Source: Bacillus sp. V5-8f (GTDB taxonomy: Bacteria > Bacillota > Bacilli > Bacillales > DSM-1321). Taken from it: DNA of 64,000 nucleotides. The stretch lies in contig NZ_PGUW01000001.1 in NCBI RefSeq assembly GCF_002863565.1, forward strand, positions 310,001-374,000. The letters run 5' to 3'. The notes below the pieces were generated by a model, which saw only the letters and a program-made list of their open reading frames with translations, did no database searches and had not been told where the DNA came from. Positions 4,855 through 17,152 of the stretch are shown in pieces. The position numbers and the translations under genes are program-made. Numbering within the stretch: the stretch's first letter is position 1; each line of letters opens with the position of its first letter.

Positions 4855-4890
4855 AATATATAAATAGAACAAATGCTTGAGGTGATGAAC

Positions 4891-6249
4891 ATGCTTTCAA
4901 AATACAATTCAATCCAAAGGGATCAGCTTGAAATGGTTACTTTAGATCAATTGGTACCAGAGGATCACTTGGTCCGGAAAATGGAGGCCGCCATTGATTT
5001 TTCGTTCATTTATGATTTGGTCAAGGATGTGTATTCGGAAGTAGGTCGCCCAAGTATTGATCCGGTGATTTTAATCAAATTGACATTTATTCAATATACG
5101 TTCGGCATTCGCTCCATGCGTCAAACCATCAAGGAAACGGAAACGAATATGGCCTACCGCTGGTTTTTAGGATATGGCTTTCATGATAAAGTGCCTCACT
5201 TTTCTACCTTCGGCAAGAACTATGAGCGTCGCTTTAAAGATACAGACCTGTTCGAACAGATTTTCTATCGGATATTAAAAACAGCAGCTGAGAAAAAACT
5301 GATTAGTCCCGAACATGTCTTTGTCGATTCAACACACGTTAAGGCAAGCGCCAATAAACATAAATTCGAAAAGAAAGTCGTACGTAAAGAAACACGGGCT
5401 TATCAGGAACAACTTCAAAAAGAAATCAACCAGGACCGGGAAGACCACGGAAAAAAGCCGTTCCCCCCGGACAAGTTTGATAAAGAAGAATCAAAGGAAA
5501 TCAAAGAAAGCACAACCGATCCGGAAAGTGGCTATTATGTAAAGGACGAACGTACCAAACAGTTCGCCTATTCTTTCCATGCGGCTTCTGACCGTAATGG
5601 ATTTGTGTTGGGGACCATGGTCACACCGGGCAATACGCATGACAGCCATATGTTGGAACCTCTGGTTGAGCAAGTGATTGAGGTAGTTGGAAAGCCAAAA
5701 GCTGTGGCGGCAGACGCAGCTTATAAAACACCTGCCATTACGAAGTATTTGCTCGATAACGAAATGACACCGGCTATGCCTTATACGCGGCCACGCACAA
5801 AAGATGGATTTTTCCGAAAACACGAATATGTCTATGATGAACACTTCGACTGTTATATTTGCCCGGCTCATGAGATATTGGCTTACTCGACAACCAACAA
5901 GGAAGGCTATCGTGAGTACAAGTCACCGAAGCACAAATGCGCAGGCTGCCCTTTTTTATCGCAGTGTACCGAAAGTAAGGACCACCAAAAAGTGGTGACC
6001 CGGCATATATGGCAAGAGTATGTGGAGGAAACAGACCATCTTCGTCATCATGAGGATGTCAAACCGATCTATGCGAAACGCAAAGAAACCATTGAGCGCG
6101 TATTCGCAGATGCAAAAGAAAAGCATGGCATGCGTTGGACAACGTTAAGGGGACTTAAAAAATTGTCGATGCAGGCGATGCTTACTTTCGCTGCCATGAA
6201 TTTGAAGAAGATGGCCAATTGGGCATGGCGAGCCCCAGAAATGGCATGA
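4891..6249 (+). CDS. IS1182 family transposase
   Basis: DDE transposase of 452 residues, apparently intact. It has the N-terminal DUF772-type domain (LVPEDHLVRKMEAAIDFSF), then the catalytic core with DSTHVKASANKHK (first Asp), AVAADAAYKTP (second Asp) and RKETIERVFADAKEKHGMR (Glu), and between the last two a cysteine cluster (CYICPAHE, CAGCPFLSQC) typical of this family. The ATG at 4891 follows GAGGTGATG closely; an ATG 18 bases upstream would overlap that site. The reading frame is undamaged, so the element may be active. Confidence 0.93.
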   Translation: MLSKYNSIQRDQLEMVTLDQLVPEDHLVRKMEAAIDFSFIYDLVKDVYSEVGRPSIDPVILIKLTFIQYTFGIRSMRQTIKETETNMAYRWFLGYGFHDKVPHFSTFGKNYERRFKDTDLFEQIFYRILKTAAEKKLISPEHVFVDSTHVKASANKHKFEKKVVRKETRAYQEQLQKEINQDREDHGKKPFPPDKFDKEESKEIKESTTDPESGYYVKDERTKQFAYSFHAASDRNGFVLGTMVTPGNTHDSHMLEPLVEQVIEVVGKPKAVAADAAYKTPAITKYLLDNEMTPAMPYTRPRTKDGFFRKHEYVYDEHFDCYICPAHEILAYSTTNKEGYREYKSPKHKCAGCPFLSQCTESKDHQKVVTRHIWQEYVEETDHLRHHEDVKPIYAKRKETIERVFADAKEKHGMRWTTLRGLKKLSMQAMLTFAAMNLKKMANWAWRAPEMA

Positions 6250-7938: not shown

Positions 7939-8571
7939 CTATTTTACCAAGGAATGTTTAAATGCATAAATGACAGCCTGGGTCCTGTCCTGTACCTCAA
8001 GTTTGCTTAAAATATTGCTTACATGGACCTTGGCCGTTTTTAGGGCGATGAACAGTTCGTCCGCTATCTCCTGATTTGTTTTCCCTTCAGCCATTAATAG
8101 CAGGATCTCCATCTCCCGCTTCGTCAACTGCTCGTGGGGAAGTTGTTTATGCTGGTTCCGCATTTTGGCCATCATTTTCCCTGTTACTTCCGGTTCAAGA
8201 ATGGACTGTCCATGATAGGTTGAACGGACAGCATCAGCAATATCGCCTGCCTTAGAGGTTTTTAACATATAGCTCGTAGCTCCCGCTTCAAGCGCAGGAT
8301 AAACTTTTTCATCATCAAGGAAACTTGTGACAATAATAATTTTTGCCTCCGGCCACTTTTCAATGATCGCACGCGTCGCTTCAATGCCGTCCATTTCATT
8401 CATGACCAAGTCCATCAGAATGATATCAGGTCGCAGTTTTAGGGCAAGCTCGACAGCCGCCCCTCCATCCTCAGCCTCACCAATTACCTCAATATCCGGC
8501 TGTACCGATAGATAAGCTGACACACCGATTCGTACCATTTCATGATCATCTACTAGTAAAACTTTAATCAT
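7939..8571 (-). CDS. liaR: LiaR-type response regulator
   Basis: NarL/LuxR-type response regulator of 210 residues: receiver with phospho-acceptor Asp in [12 protein letters not shown], and a C-terminal LuxR helix-turn-helix ([21 protein letters not shown]). It is the partner of the LiaS kinase next to it and, by analogy with B. subtilis and VraR of staphylococci, activates liaIH on cell-wall antibiotic stress. The start is ATG 8571 behind GAGGTGG; it overlaps the end of liaS by 8 bp, indicating translational coupling. It is the last gene of the locus. Confidence 0.92.
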
Positions 8572-9607
8572 TCTCTTCCACCTCAACCGTCATCGGGACT
8601 TTTACTTCCAGCCTCGTGCCTTTATTCGGAACACTGACGATCTTCATGGTCCCGCCTATTTCCATAGCACGCTCATGCATATTTTGCAAACCATAGGAAC
8701 CAGTTTTTGAATCCTCTATGTTAAAACCGAGTCCATTATCCACGATTCGCATGATAATCAAATCGTCACGCCCGATCAGTAAAACCTCAAGATTTGTTGC
8801 TTTAGCATGCCTCAATGTGTTGGAGACAGATTCCTGCAGGATGCGAAATAGATGATCCTCTATTCCCCGGTCTAATAGGATCGGCTCAATTTTCCAGGTA
8901 ATGTTTATCGGTACCTTTTGGGATAATTCGGTCAAAAGCTCCTGAATTCCTTCCTGTAATGACTTATCACGCAACGGAACAGGTCGGAGATGCAATAACA
9001 AGGCTCTCATTTCAAGCTGCGATTGATGGATCATCCCTTCTACCATTTTTAACTGTTTTGCCTCAGCGCTTTTAAGATCAGGCTTTGATTCCGTGATCGC
9101 TGACATAAGCATAGATGCAGCAAAGAGCTGCTGGCTCACTGAATCGTGCAGCTCCCTTGCCAGGCGGTTTCGCTCTTGGGAGACGATTTCTTCGATAATT
9201 TTTTCCTGCTCCACCACTTTTTCTGCGGTAAGTTTTTGCGAAATTTTTGCCTGCTCGGATAAATGGTTGTGGACTTTCTTCATTCTAGACGATATCGTCT
9301 TGAATTCCTGAATGCTATAGGATTCTATCGGCGAAGGGGCGTTTCCGTGTTCAAGCTGGTATAAAGCATCTCCTAAGCCTTGAAGCTGCCTTCTCCAAAA
9401 CAGTCCGGTGCTAACCCCGAAAATAAGTCCCCCCACCAAGCTTAAAATAGGAACAAAAAGAATAAACGGCATACCCATGATTTTTTTATGCCACAGGAGG
9501 TGCCAGTCTTCTGGGGGAAATGCAAAGAAAACCACCGCTGATAGTGAGAACGAAATAATCAATGCAGCGACCATTCCGCTTACAATTTGCCTGGCTAAAA
9601 TACTCAT
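8564..9607 (-). CDS. liaS: LiaS-type sensor histidine kinase
   Basis: Membrane kinase of 347 residues with two N-terminal membrane helices (about 8-30 and 43-66) separated by a very short loop, as in intramembrane-sensing kinases. A linker and coiled coil follow, then HisKA_3 with the phospho-acceptor His in [20 protein letters not shown] (near residue 154) and a HATPase_c domain ([20 protein letters not shown]). It overlaps liaF by 4 bp (ATGA) and liaR by 8 bp. LiaF is known to hold this kinase inactive without envelope stress. Confidence 0.93.
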
Positions 9608-10347
9608 ATCCGTTTCACCTCTAGATTTCCCGTCAAATGCGAGGTGATGATTTTTACTTTCTCGCCTGCATTTTGATAGTCAGCAGTCTGATATGAGATG
9701 ATTTGGTTGAATGCCATGTTCTCTTGATGCTGAAAAATATGGGCTTTACCGGAAAATACCGAGTGGTGGATGCTTACCTCGATATCATAAGGAACCAGGA
9801 TCTTTATATTTCCTATCAAGTTTCTAATGGAAATGACAGCTTCCCCTTTAGGAAGTATCGTATTGCTTAAATCAACAATTGTATCGCCTATTCCTCCCTG
9901 TATGTTTATATCATTCCACTCGTAGATGTGATCAGGCGTTGTTTGCCTGCCAAATAATTTATTCTCAAATAATTGGCTCTTTTTAAGCAATGGCTCATTC
10001 TCACGGTTATCAACGAGAGGTTGAGGTTCAACCAGCAAAGGCTTGATTATTTCAGGATTTTTTTTGGACCGGTAAAAAACTACAATTACATAAACGATTA
10101 GAGCAAGAAGGAAAAATTTGAAGATCATCATATTGAGCACAGTTATTACCGTGGCGAATAAACCCGCCCAGAACATGAATCTTCCCCGTTTACGGGCGTA
10201 AGACTTCCGGCCATAATAGGCAATTGCAATCGTAAACACAAGGGAGAATAATAAACCCCCGTCAAAAAACACGATTTCTAGAAGCAGCAAAGCCACTCCT
10301 ACCAATACCATCCAGCTAACATAATCTGTTTTTAGTTGTTTGAACAT
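9604..10347 (-). CDS. liaF: LiaF-type inhibitor of the Lia system
   Basis: A 247-residue membrane protein with four hydrophobic segments in the first 100 residues, then a soluble beta-rich C-terminal domain (cell-wall-active antibiotics response, DUF2154-like) with INIQGGIGDTIVDLSNTILP and ISIRNLIGNIKILVPYDIEV. In B. subtilis LiaF is the negative regulator of LiaS. The start is ATG 10347 behind GGGAGGT. A liaG gene, present at this place in B. subtilis, is absent. Confidence 0.9.
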   Translation of the reverse strand: MFKQLKTDYVSWMVLVGVALLLLEIVFFDGGLLFSLVFTIAIAYYGRKSYARKRGRFMFWAGLFATVITVLNMMIFKFFLLALIVYVIVVFYRSKKNPEIIKPLLVEPQPLVDNRENEPLLKKSQLFENKLFGRQTTPDHIYEWNDINIQGGIGDTIVDLSNTILPKGEAVISIRNLIGNIKILVPYDIEVSIHHSVFSGKAHIFQHQENMAFNQIISYQTADYQNAGEKVKIITSHLTGNLEVKRI

Positions 10348-10462
10348 GGGGTACCTCCCTTCGTAAACTGTTTGTGAATTACAGGTTTGAAATGCACCGT
10401 TCAATTATTAAATGAAGATTAATCTTATGAAATAGCTTTAATTATGATAAAATTCCAGATTA

Positions 10463-10614
10463 TTGATATAACCTGAATGACCGATATAACCACTGACATT
10501 GTTGATATATTTTCTAAAATATGGATTCAACCTCATCAATTGTTGATTTGATATCATGCCTAAATATTGTTAGAACCCCTGCAATTCAGATATTGCCCCG
10601 AATTGTCGATAAAC
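10463..10614. repeat. Degenerate ~20-bp array, TTGATATAACC core
   Basis: Related 11-mers (TTGATATAACC, CCGATATAACC, TTGATATATTT, TGGATTCAACC, TTGATTTGATA and weaker ones) start near 10463, 10481, 10502, 10522, 10543, 10567, 10587 and 10604. The average spacing is about 20 bp. The array fills the gap between liaH and liaF where liaG would be expected. Confidence 0.5.
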
Positions 10615-10616
10615 CT

Positions 10617-10644
10617 AAAAGGCGTAGTAACCTACGCCTTTTTT
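10617..10644 (-). terminator. Hairpin between liaH and liaF
   Basis: Stem GGCGTAG / CTACGCC with a four-base loop, flanked by A and T runs so that it can act on both strands. On the minus strand it would end a liaI-liaH transcript before liaFSR. That fits the short abundant liaIH message known in B. subtilis. Confidence 0.75.
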
Positions 10645-10661
10645 AGAATACCATGACATCA

Positions 10662-11309
10662 TTAGGAAATAGAATGCGTTTCTTTATTTTTCCTATCTTT
10701 TTCAAGTTGTGCAATACGGGCATCAATGGTATTGCAGTGGTGGGCTGAATTAACTTGGTGTTCCAGCCTGTCGAGATAGGACTCCATTTCTTCAAATCGG
10801 GCGAATGGTTTGTTTACATAGGCGTCAGATTGTATCACCTGATTGATCCGGTAGCTAGCGCGTGCCATGTTTTCACGGCCCATTAGTTCCATACGTTTAA
10901 TGTTCATATCCTTCAGCTTATGATTCATTTCTTCGTATTTGCGCTCTAACTCTTGAAGCTGCGTTTCAGCCTTTCGAAGTGCCTCTTTTAGCTTTTGTGC
11001 ACGCTCTTCATAATGGACACTCTCTTCGACCGCTAATGACTGCAATTCTGCTTCCCCTGCTTGGGCAGCAATTTTCGCCTGGTGACGGCGTTTTTCTTCA
11101 AGGCTAGAGGCGTGGTGATATTCCCGGTTGAATTCTTCCTTCAGGAGGAATTGTCGTTCTACCAATTTACGTACCTTTTCCGTTTCCTGCTCACATTGGC
11201 GAAGATACTGGTTCAACAAGGCAATCGGATTTTTTTGTTCCTTTTCATCAAGCATTTCATGAAAATCCGCAGCAATTGCGTTTTTAATTCTTGTGAATAA
11301 ATTACTCAT
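10662..11309 (-). CDS. liaH: LiaH, PspA/IM30 family phage-shock protein
   Basis: A 215-residue, almost wholly alpha-helical protein with long coiled coils (about residues 25-150), highly charged and without membrane segments, as expected of the PspA/IM30 family. NPIALLNQYLRQCEQE near residue 29 matches the family N-terminal helix. It forms large oligomers at the inner face of a stressed membrane. The start ATG 11309 follows AAAGGAGAG; a TTG two codons earlier is possible. It lies 19 bp after liaI and is expected to be the main output of the Lia system. Confidence 0.9.
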   Translation of the reverse strand: MSNLFTRIKNAIAADFHEMLDEKEQKNPIALLNQYLRQCEQETEKVRKLVERQFLLKEEFNREYHHASSLEEKRRHQAKIAAQAGEAELQSLAVEESVHYEERAQKLKEALRKAETQLQELERKYEEMNHKLKDMNIKRMELMGRENMARASYRINQVIQSDAYVNKPFARFEEMESYLDRLEHQVNSAHHCNTIDARIAQLEKDRKNKETHSIS

Positions 11310-11328
11310 GATCAATCTCTCCTTTTTG

Positions 11329-11673
11329 TTATCGTTTTAATTCCGCCCATTGTTTTTCAAAATTGATAAAGGGATCTTGCTCTTGTTCCTTGCTGCTTTT
11401 TTTCGTTTCATTCCACTTTTTGTAGATCAGGTAAAGCACATAAGCCGCTGCAAGGCCGATGAGGGAAGGTACATTTGCAAGCGATGCCGATATTGCTACC
11501 AGGCCGACTAGCCCCCAAAGGATTTTCCCCATTGTGGAGTCTGATTTCACAAATTGTTTAAACACAAAGTATAGGATCACCAGGCTAAGGGCAAGGCCGG
11601 CCATTGGCCCAACATTTGCGAGCAGCACGCAGGCCGCTATTCCTCCTGCAAGTAATAAACCGAATTTCTTCAT
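11329..11673 (-). CDS. liaI: LiaI-like small membrane protein
   Basis: A 114-residue membrane protein with three hydrophobic segments (about 5-20, 22-42, 50-85) and a charged C-terminal tail (WNETKKSSKEQEQDPFINFE). It belongs to the lmo0954/LiaI-type group and is slightly shorter than B. subtilis LiaI. In B. subtilis LiaI anchors LiaH at the membrane. It is the first gene of the locus, with AAAGGAGGA before the ATG. The promoter should lie in 11674-11760. Confidence 0.82.
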   Translation of the reverse strand: MKKFGLLLAGGIAACVLLANVGPMAGLALSLVILYFVFKQFVKSDSTMGKILWGLVGLVAISASLANVPSLIGLAAAYVLYLIYKKWNETKKSSKEQEQDPFINFEKQWAELKR

Positions 11674-14905: not shown

Positions 14906-14936
14906 TCTTCTTGCAATTTCAAACAGACAGACACAG

Positions 14937-14971
14937 AAAACCGTTTACTTTGATAGGTAAACGGTTTTCTT
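14937..14971 (+). terminator. Terminator of the purine permease gene
   Basis: AAAACCGTTTAC and GTAAACGGTTTT form a perfect 12-bp stem with an 8-base loop and a T run. Confidence 0.9.
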
Positions 14972-14977
14972 AGGCCT

Positions 14978-15006
14978 AAAAAAGATGCCTGTAGCTACAG
15001 ACATCC
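14978..15006 (-). terminator. Terminator of the parM-parR operon
   Basis: On the minus strand GATGT-CTGTAGCTACAG-GCATC is a near-perfect palindrome followed by six T. Confidence 0.75.
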
Positions 15007-15015
15007 TTCCCCATT

Positions 15016-15603
15016 TCATTTATTCATTTGCGCGAGAAAATCCCCTAGCAAATCATCTAAGCTTTCTTCTTTGGCGGGTTCCGGTTCATTGTCTTCATCT
15101 GAATGTACGGTGGTCACCTGACTCCAATCAAAGTCATCTAGATCGTTATCCTCGACTGAGGTAACGGTCGCTTCACTTGGAGCATCCTTGTGGTCATTTA
15201 AGATTCCAGGCATTGTATTTACTTCTTCTTGCAAATACAATGCCTGATCTATTTCCGTAGCATTGCTGTTCATTGATGCCAGCAAGGCGGTAGCTCTTAA
15301 TGGATCTGATAAAAGCTGATAAACAATGCTTCCTAGCAATGCCTCTGAATGGGCATGTTTGAGCCAATCACGCTGAGTTTTGCTCAATTTATGAGGCAAT
15401 GGAATCGAGATCATTTCCCTTTCCCTGATGGAACTATTTCCTACCCCTTCCATCACGAACTCTGCTATTTTACTGGAAAAGTTCCTTTTTTCAGTTTCCT
15501 TAAGATGTTGAAGCTGCCTTATGATATGGTCAGGAGTATCAGAGGGAAGGCGAAACGTAATTGCCTGCCCTCGTTGTATCCCTGCACCGGTTGACTTTTT
15601 CAT
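15016..15603 (-). CDS. parR: ParR-like centromere-binding adaptor
   Basis: A 195-residue protein directly after parM (8-bp gap). The N-terminus has a ribbon-helix-helix pattern (QAITFRLPSDTPDHIIRQLQ then FSSKIAEFV), as in plasmid ParR proteins. The C-terminal third is acidic and ends in a short amphipathic helix (SLDDLLGDFLAQMNK), the kind of tail that ParR uses to cap the ParM filament. The order parC-parM-parR is that of type II plasmid partition loci. Function is inferred from position and architecture, since ParR proteins diverge strongly in sequence. Confidence 0.75.
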   Translation of the reverse strand: MKKSTGAGIQRGQAITFRLPSDTPDHIIRQLQHLKETEKRNFSSKIAEFVMEGVGNSSIREREMISIPLPHKLSKTQRDWLKHAHSEALLGSIVYQLLSDPLRATALLASMNSNATEIDQALYLQEEVNTMPGILNDHKDAPSEATVTSVEDNDLDDFDWSQVTTVHSDEDNEPEPAKEESLDDLLGDFLAQMNK

Positions 15604-15611
15604 TTAATCAC

Positions 15612-16811
15612 CTATTTAGTTGTGCCGGCTTTTTGTTCTTCCTTTTTGTTTTCAGGTTTTACCGGTGTTTCTTTAGCATTTCTTCTTATGAAGTCCGAAA
15701 TTAGCTTATAATAGGCATTGGCCATCATCCAGATGCTTTCCTTTTCATCTTCAAAAAAATCGATATTATAGCCATCAAGGTTATTATTTAGCGTTTTTAA
15801 ATAATCCTTTAACACAATGGCTCCGCCGCCGATAAAGTAACAGATTTCTGATTGGGAGTTCTTCTGCCAAATATTGCGTAAGTGGCGGTATTGCTTCTTG
15901 GCCAGTTCTCCTAGAATCCGGTCCGTAATGTCATGCACGCTCGTGCGGCTTCCTCGGACCATAATGTGGTTCCTGTCATTTTTCTTGGTAATGATTTCAA
16001 CAACATCCCGCCTGCTGTCCAATTCCACCCCGTGCTTCTTACGGATTTCCTCTCTTATAGCTTCCAGTGCTTCAGCCACACCAAGATTAAATCCCTGCGA
16101 TTTATCGTCGTCTACCTTTCGATTTTGAATTACAGCAATATCAGTAGATAAACCGCCGATGTCCTGGATCAGAATACGCTTATCAATTAAATCACGGTTA
16201 ATAATATTTAAATCATTATCCATGACAAGGTTGATATATGCCGCAAAGCCCTCTGGATATACTTTCACTTCGTCAAACTTAATATTGACCTTTAAGCCCT
16301 GGTATTTAGGGGTGACCAAGAATTCCACTTGGTGGACAGAGCCAAGTAGACGTGAACGATAGCCGACATCCTTTCCTTCTTTTACTTCACGGAGCGGAAG
16401 GCCTGTCCCTAAAGTATAAGTTGCATCCACTACATTATTTGTTTTCCTAAATATCTTAGAGTTTTCCTCTTTCACCGCATCCAATGCCAAAGCCGTGAAC
16501 AGCATGACCAGGGTTTGATCCTCTTCTGATTTGCTGCTGCCCGGATCCAATTCGGATGGGTTATCACCTTTCGTGGCTAGGCTGCCCACACGGTATATTG
16601 CATTATTATCTTGAAGAGCGGGGGAGTGGACCCTGATGTGAATCCCTTCAAGTGGGTTCTGATCATTTAACTCCTCGATTCCGATAACAGGTCTATCCTC
16701 TATATCTCTTGCAATTACGTTAGGTATGTATAGTTCAGAATCCAACTTTCCAAACAAAGCTTTGATGGAATCATTTCCAACATCAACAGCTGCAATTCGT
16801 GAATTACTCAT
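15612..16811 (-). CDS. parM: ParM/StbA-type actin-like ATPase
   Basis: A 399-residue actin-fold ATPase. Phosphate 1 motif IAAVDVGNDSIKALFG is at the N-terminus, phosphate 2 is ILIQDIGGLSTDIAVIQ near residue 225, and the adenosine motif CYFIGGGAIVLKDYL is near residue 325. Plasmid ParM proteins polymerise to push replicons apart. The start ATG 16811 follows GGAAGG with a seven-base gap; an upstream in-frame ATG at 16862 has no site and would run into the repeat region. The C-terminus is charged. No plasmid replication gene is visible nearby, so this is a chromosomal or integrated cassette. Confidence 0.88.
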   Translation of the reverse strand: MSNSRIAAVDVGNDSIKALFGKLDSELYIPNVIARDIEDRPVIGIEELNDQNPLEGIHIRVHSPALQDNNAIYRVGSLATKGDNPSELDPGSSKSEEDQTLVMLFTALALDAVKEENSKIFRKTNNVVDATYTLGTGLPLREVKEGKDVGYRSRLLGSVHQVEFLVTPKYQGLKVNIKFDEVKVYPEGFAAYINLVMDNDLNIINRDLIDKRILIQDIGGLSTDIAVIQNRKVDDDKSQGFNLGVAEALEAIREEIRKKHGVELDSRRDVVEIITKKNDRNHIMVRGSRTSVHDITDRILGELAKKQYRHLRNIWQKNSQSEICYFIGGGAIVLKDYLKTLNNNLDGYNIDFFEDEKESIWMMANAYYKLISDFIRRNAKETPVKPENKKEEQKAGTTK

Positions 16812-16933
16812 AAAACCATTCCTTCCTATTTTTAGAGAGTAAACAAAAATTGTGGAAACCACATTACTTTAAGAATATGAAAGTTTCATAGAATGGTCAA
16901 TACACCTTTAGAAGGATAATAGATTTGTTATTT

Positions 16934-17073
16934 TGTACACAGTTTTGTAAACAACGAATACAAAGTTGTACACATCCCGTCATAGCCGCATGTATACAAC
17001 TTTGTTTACTTGTGTACATTTTATGTGTACATTGTATACATTTTTGTTTACTTGTGTACAAAATTTGTATACA
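16934..17073. repeat. parC-like centromere: cluster of TGTRTACA iterons
   Basis: About 12 octamers related to TGTATACA / TGTGTACA / TGTACACA lie within 140 bp (starts near 16934, 16947, 16967, 16991, 17003, 17011, 17024, 17033, 17045, 17053, 17066). The 18-mer TTTGTTTACTTGTGTACA occurs twice exactly, at 17001 and 17043. The cluster lies directly upstream of parM, where the centromere and autoregulatory operator of parMRC loci are found. The surrounding DNA shows no such repeats. Confidence 0.8.
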
Positions 17074-17152
17074 AAGATTTTTTTACTAAATTGCAGTTTA
17101 ATTCTCTTCGTGATCTTCTTTTTTAAACCTAGGTTATATCCATAATCCAGGT

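Follow-up and report, generated by a model that had tools for sequence, protein, structure and literature searches.

What does a plasmid-type ParMRC partition cassette do when it sits on a chromosome? The question is raised by a locus of Bacillus sp. V5-8f, contained in a stretch of 64,000 nucleotides (the window) comprising positions 310,001 to 374,000 of contig NZ_PGUW01000001.1, i.e. 310-374 kb of contig C1 in a 4.43 Mb draft genome of a Peribacillus-like species. The genes parM and parR form a minus-strand operon, with a promoter and a repeat array upstream and a terminator downstream. From sequence comparison, we favour with a little better than even confidence the reading that this cassette is a chromosome-resident ParMRC segregation system, the cargo of which would be the chromosome's own origin region. 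It is read as domesticated and origin-linked because the operon is conserved, the array is phased, the locus is linked to oriC on its left side and selection on it is strongly purifying. The features of the cassette are as follows (window coordinates).

parM, 15612..16811, minus strand: by sequence an Alp7A-like/ParM-kind actin-like ATPase of 399 amino acids (aa), ATG start at 16811, in an open reading frame of 15612-16862.
parR, 15016..15603, minus strand: putative DNA-binding adaptor of 195 aa, with N-terminal RGQxITFRxP and RNFSS, an acidic variable linker and C-terminal FLxxMN.
parC-like array, 16934..17073, minus strand: 11 GTNTAC/GTANAC cores (16935-17067), split by a non-repeat element.
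Non-repeat element dividing the array, ~16974-16991: consensus ATGTTGATATATAAGGAT in relatives.
Promoter-like TTGACC-17-TATTCT, 16872..16900, minus strand: between the array and parM, 9/12 consensus matches.
Isolated extra GTTTAC core, 16839..16844, minus strand: near the parM start, possible operator.
Intrinsic terminator, 14978..15006, minus strand: hairpin plus T6 just past parR, predicted by folding.
Second hairpin, 14935-14970, minus strand: beyond the terminator hairpin.

A preliminary description of the window had proposed an actin-like ParM, an adaptor-like gene, upstream repeats and a downstream terminator; the open reading frames were found as described, and the repeats and terminator proved to be an 11-core array and a hairpin with T6. 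Its view of the locus as a chromosomal type II partition cassette was likewise borne out. The contig did not prove to be the plasmid or megaplasmid named there as the contrary outcome: C1 belongs to the 4.43 Mb draft, and the cassette lay on the contig carrying dnaA in all 78 relatives in which this was measured.

Cassettes were compared over 81 loci, namely the window and the best 80 of 432 loci from a scan of named genomes (81-94% ParM identity). These 80 span Peribacillus, Metabacillus, Mesobacillus, Cytobacillus, Pseudalkalibacillus, Alkalihalobacillus, Psychrobacillus, Jeotgalibacillus and others, and the ParM of P. glennii is 94% identical to the window protein. ParM matched Pfam Alp7A_like_C (PF22128) at 1.6e-36, above the cut-off, as well as MreB-like_C and ALP_N, and matched PHROG 691, 'partition protein', at 1.5e-43. 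The short motifs VGN, IGGLS, STD and GGG, which we take to be nucleotide-site motifs, were present in 81/81 ParMs. Together these matches and motifs place the protein, by sequence, among the actin-like ATPases of the ParM/Alp kind. The likely start is the ATG at 16811, preceded by AGGAAGGA, rather than the upstream GTG. ParM and parR were adjacent and on the same strand at 81/81 loci with a gap of 5-19 bases, placing the adaptor gene in the operon throughout.

The array is the second conserved part. Spacings between cores in the window are mostly 8 and 12-13 bp, approximately 20-21 bp per pair. Base-shuffled versions of the window upstream sequence held no more than 0.7 cores per 200 bp on average and never above 3, against the 11 observed. 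In 79/81 loci the array has 5 or more cores per 200 bp, placing iterated repeats upstream at the promoter; the exceptions, L087 and L112, have 4, and shuffles average 0.5-1.1. Over all 81 loci, 8 and 12-13 bp are the commonest core spacings, with 20-21 bp for every second core, and the phasing peaks at a period of 10.5-11 bp, as expected for a protein coating one face of the helix. The element that splits the array is kept in most of 14 aligned loci and has diverged in the window. Between the array and parM, the same promoter layout recurs in 60/81 loci, compared with 1.8% of shuffles (promoter-grade sites in the window region numbered 9, against 6.5 in shuffles); as a sequence, this promoter resembles the vegetative sigma-A type. 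The extra GTTTAC core near the parM start is absent from the nearest relative (L033) and is perhaps due to chance.

The position of the cassette was measured relative to dnaA in 78 genomes: 28 of the 36 genus genomes, 26 others of a family-spanning set of 30 (two more of this set being among the 28), and 24 others, which are the order genomes with both genes on one contig among the matches listed. Genomes with parM and dnaA on different contigs (8/36 of the genus and 2/30 of the chosen set) were left out; the window genome, G000, belongs to both sets. In 78/78 measurable genomes the two genes are on opposite strands, with parM to the left of dnaA and read away from oriC. The parM-dnaA distance was 34-287 kb with a median of 92, and was within 150 kb in 72/78. 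Two genes near the cassette in the window served as controls. A DEAD-box helicase gene, two genes from the cassette, was less than 300 kb from dnaA in 7/19 genomes (median 721 kb), and htpG, approximately 39 kb from the cassette, in 4/12 (median 647 kb). Paired comparison of parM with these controls gave p values of 4e-6 (helicase) and 0.007 (htpG), which are a guide only because the genomes are not independent.

Both controls were drawn from the family-spanning set of 30. For the helicase, 19 genomes were retained after removal of G000, G334, G407 and G214 (the last two without chromosome length) and of weak, paralogue-like matches in G044, G082, G151, G203, G246, G347 and G369; the 19 may still include paralogues (50-62% identity). 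For htpG, 12 genomes were retained after removal of 14 without the gene and of G000, G334, G407 and G214.

Within the genus, ParM was present at 84% identity or more in 36/36 genomes, confirming the genus-wide conservation that the preliminary description had asked about; in one low-quality genome (G008) parM is in two pieces and dnaA is broken too. In a sample of the order, ParM matched at 1e-10 in 208/397 genomes and 58/135 genera. Counted from the table, 201 of these matches were below 1e-190 and 7 were weak, with a strong match in 32/47 families. A sample of the class gave matches at 1e-60 in 33/398 genomes, of which, by our own count, 24 were at 76-100% identity, 9 at 38-44% and none between. 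A search for PapR, a marker of the B. cereus group, gave no match anywhere, controls included.

Selection was estimated over 11 species pairs. For parM, dN/dS was 0.012-0.034 in the 8 informative pairs, which corresponds to strong purifying selection and answers the second check of the preliminary description; for parR it was 0.07-0.20 in 6 of 11 pairs. Saturation of dS affected two comparisons for parM and four for parR, and the closest species pair gave 0 (parM) and 0.51 (parR).

These results bear directly on the idea, raised in the preliminary description, that the locus is a relic of an integrated plasmid, or more generally a mobile cassette without host function. Homology to plasmid ParMRC, changing neighbours with some horizontal exchange, and a transposase 9 kb off would all suit such an origin. 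It is nevertheless very unlikely, being contradicted by the parM dN/dS, the presence of parM in every genus genome, the constant placement beside oriC in 78/78 and the lack of any plasmid member of the chromosomal clade among the plasmid records searched, although records very near the window genome may be left out of these. The same conservation, selection and position lend support to the other suggestion made there, a domesticated filament system that may act on the chromosome. Its remark that no mobile genes lie nearby was nearly right, apart from a DDE transposase open reading frame at 4873-6249, approximately 9 kb away. Synteny, also raised there as a check, held for the parM-parR pair (81/81) and the zone to the left of oriC (78/78) but not for other neighbours (at most 22/81).

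Beyond ParM and ParR, the most common gene within 10 kb occurs in only those 22 of 81 loci (flanks are shorter at a few loci). In a set of 20 genomes from 11 families, the commonest neighbour was found in 5, and the two f28 genomes share a whole block. The ParM and DnaA trees were quick trees, five DnaA rows being cut at the record start, and families for approximately unbiased (AU) tests were picked after the trees had been viewed. In the DnaA tree all nine multi-member families were intact. In the ParM tree f1, f28, f3 and f7 were intact, and f46, f43, f11, f41 and f47 were broken, with AU p values against the family clades of 0.0004, 0.028, 0.018, 0.0008 and 0.019, respectively. Pairwise identities of ParM and DnaA gave a Spearman coefficient of 0.07, and tree distances 0.29. 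Vertical inheritance alone is not claimed, as the two sets of identities are hardly correlated. In a ParM-ParR tree, named genera clustered (25 label changes against a minimum of 19 and a shuffled mean of 47; 17 rows named Bacillus or without genus were omitted). Since genera cluster while the ParM tree breaks families, inheritance is vertical for the most part, interrupted at times by exchange or replacement, after which the cassette is still found to the left of oriC. Homologous cassettes could have replaced one another in place, and the differing neighbours speak against this as the only cause.

Second arrays supply a further line of evidence. In 15/36 genus genomes a second array lies 0.8-2 kb upstream of the first, and a decayed parM start is listed in six of them. 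Across the 81 loci, 14, from several genera, have a second cluster of at least 5 cores upstream of parM, at a distance of 1.1-2.3 kb (L040, L041, L042, L053, L063, L065, L066, L067, L070, L071, L072, L075, L082 and L098), and parM remnants are detectable beside it in five (L040, L041, L042, L065 and L098). Across seven Peribacillus-type loci, identity over most of the second array is 84-89%, free of gaps, and over the stretch that holds the parM remnant, between the second array and the upstream region of the main array, it is 38-67%, with many gaps. That a second array is kept while the adjoining parM decays suggests that the array itself is under selection. Second arrays, together with an oriC zone that stays constant despite changing neighbours, support a chromosome-directed role.

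They also bear on the proposal that ParM is cytoskeletal without chromosomal cargo and that the array is merely a large autoregulatory operator. The array does abut the promoter, and the 36 genus genomes hold no other strong arrays: in a profile search, every match with E below 0.001 fell on the parMR locus. Dispersed centromeres were considered for five weaker matches outside it (E 0.002-0.01), of which the window genome has two; these matches were taken as probable chance, the calibration being rough. An 11-core, helically phased array nevertheless exceeds the needs of an operator, second arrays persist beside decayed or undetectable parM copies, and proximity to oriC would be irrelevant to such a function. 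We regard an operator-only role as quite unlikely.

For the favoured role in segregating the origin region, the following mechanism is proposed. ParR dimers would coat the array cooperatively, and array-bound ParR would repress the promoter (autoregulation). The C-terminal FLxxMN peptides of ParR would nucleate or cap ParM filaments, which would grow between the two origin-proximal arrays that replication has just produced, or outward from them. Soon after replication has begun, the filaments could thereby drive sister origin regions apart, position them or anchor them. ParMRC would assist ParABS/SMC in this, and its contribution may fall largely in a particular phase, for example rapid growth or sporulation.

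A sporulation-specific role is a distinct variant, with filaments that anchor or pull the origin into the forespore, as an actin-based counterpart of the RacA/Soj-Spo0J route, instead of vegetative segregation. Most named carrier genera are spore formers by habit, and linkage to the origin fits polar capture of the origin equally well. The promoter, however, resembles the vegetative sigma-A type, and this variant is judged rather unlikely.

Chromosomal ParABS has a Walker ATPase motor and origin-proximal parS sites. The cassette is like it in placing a centromere-like site near oriC and differs from it in motor, in the kind of site, and in having one or two arrays that adjoin its own operon. 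For a large part of the Bacillaceae we put at about even the chance of a wider proposition, that a ParMRC spindle has been permanently recruited for the origin region as a second, filament-driven segregation or anchoring machine beside ParABS, held at oriC by selection despite exchange between families or new neighbours.

Several observations weigh against assigning the origin region as cargo. About half of the order sample of 397 genomes lacks the clade and, to our knowledge, B. subtilis has no such parM gene, so the cassette is not generally essential. B. subtilis has about ten parS sites, by comparison with which one or two arrays per chromosome are few. Conservation is not confined to the arrays, as a stretch of approximately 170 bp that adjoins the main array on its upstream side shows 77-82% conservation as well in the seven Peribacillus-type loci. 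Position could be partly inherited, distance from oriC being often conserved, and it was judged against two control genes in non-independent genomes; the conflict between the ParM and DnaA trees could in part reflect weak signal. Profile searches for a ribbon-helix-helix (RHH) fold in ParR gave no match. Lastly, in G334 the cassette (G334:C3, L210) and dnaA are on different contigs, that of the cassette being 148 kb long. The 148 kb contig is probably chromosomal, because several genes near its cassette are also found near the chromosomal cassettes of two relatives; a plasmid is the remaining alternative.

Among known systems, the cassette resembles the type II ParMRC loci of R1 and pSK41 in its actin-like motor, small adaptor and upstream repeats, which in pSK41 are 10 bp direct repeats (PMC4911067). 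Unlike those plasmid-borne loci, and unlike the usual carriage of type II systems by low-copy plasmids, it is chromosomal. The match to R1 ParM is very weak (E 0.011), and the protein is barely related by sequence to ParMs of solved structure. Closer likeness is seen to Alp7A, which with Alp7R forms the system of B. subtilis plasmid pLS20, and to plasmid ParMs at 41-44% identity (e.g. that of B. methanolicus pBM69): shared features are the Alp7A-like C-terminal domain, the parM-parR order, promoter repeats and homology of the ParR N-terminus.

Plasmid records matching ParM numbered 63, all below 60% identity and the top-ranked at 43.8%; phages gave one weak match (24.3%). Four plasmid loci were examined. 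Their aligned ParRs are 139-149 aa long and lack the FLxxMN end, whereas ParR of the chromosomal clade is longer and has it. They hold 0 to 4 array-type cores against approximately 10 in the chromosomal clade. Three have repeats of the GCATGC/GCATAC type; in the fourth, from a P. polymyxa plasmid, the promoter carries four cores of the GTATAC/GTAAAC type. On other contigs of five of the 36 genus genomes (G007, G028, G010, G023 and G011) a second ParM, 42-43% identical, was found; these second copies are possibly plasmid-borne.

Such relatives raise the alternative of a device directed at plasmids, in which ParR and the array would act as a centromere decoy, or plasmids bearing related arrays would be moved by ParM. 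The second ParMs and the motif shared with the P. polymyxa plasmid array are in its favour, and action on plasmids is left open by Ali et al. (PMC12270681). A plasmid-directed device would account neither for the constant position to the left of oriC nor for second arrays being kept in cis, and three of the four plasmid relatives use other operator motifs. We consider it unlikely.

Chromosomal ParMs as such are already known. A 2025 report describes Dh-cParM1 of Desulfitobacterium, Cb-cParM of C. botulinum and Bt-cParM1/2 of Bacillus tropicus, and states that Cb-cParR binds a chromosomal parC (PMC12270681). As described there, cParMR systems consist of chromosomal ParM and ParR genes conserved within a genus and with no evident plasmid role. 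The present cassette is like them, with chromosomal parM and parR and no associated plasmid genes. Bt-cParM1/2, said to be conserved in Bacillus species (PMC12270681), could be relatives of the clade. In the portion of that paper available no discussion of origin linkage was found, its text holding one word beginning with oriC (PMC12270681), and no report of the present origin-linked clade was found in listings and abstract openings of the open-access literature.

Many Bacillus-related soil bacteria carry this plasmid-type actin system near the chromosomal origin, and the spindle may have been recruited for the chromosome. The clade is the strongest circumstantial case known to us, being widespread, old, strongly selected and beside the origin wherever measurable, and it makes movement of a bacterial chromosome by an actin spindle directly testable in harmless soil bacteria. 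The model species B. subtilis is not known to have the gene, which may explain why the clade was overlooked.

The adaptor was examined further. ParR is 179-209 aa long across the 81 loci; its N-terminal region and C-terminal end are conserved and the acidic linker between them is variable. FLxxMN at the C-terminus and HSEA occur in 81/81 and RNFSS in 80/81. No meaningful family match was obtained in Pfam, PHROG or further profile searches, and the protein is homologous to small proteins adjoining plasmid ParMs (E down to 6e-17). That ParR is an RHH protein we only infer, from its sequence pattern; a tandem RHH arrangement was set aside, as no internal similarity was found. Frames of approximately 600 aa suggested a ParM-ParR fusion, but in 10/10 loci fetched a stop separates parM from parR, the two being distinct genes in a shared frame. 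In ten genomes (L114-L123), parR follows in the frame of parM past a single stop codon near the parR start, which suggests translational coupling and conceivably rare read-through.

Downstream of parR, the terminator hairpin was not listed by a consensus terminator scanner; folded together, the two hairpins gave -39.5 kcal/mol (z -7.6). The transposase open reading frame at 4873-6249, approximately 9 kb from parR, matched Pfam DDE_Tnp_1_6 at 1.5e-31. Beyond the helicase gene, a PspA/IM30 protein is encoded in what is likely an envelope-stress cluster (7939-11673), found near the cassette in 7-9 of 81 loci; the genes beside it are presumably LiaRS/LiaF-like, judging from their sequence.
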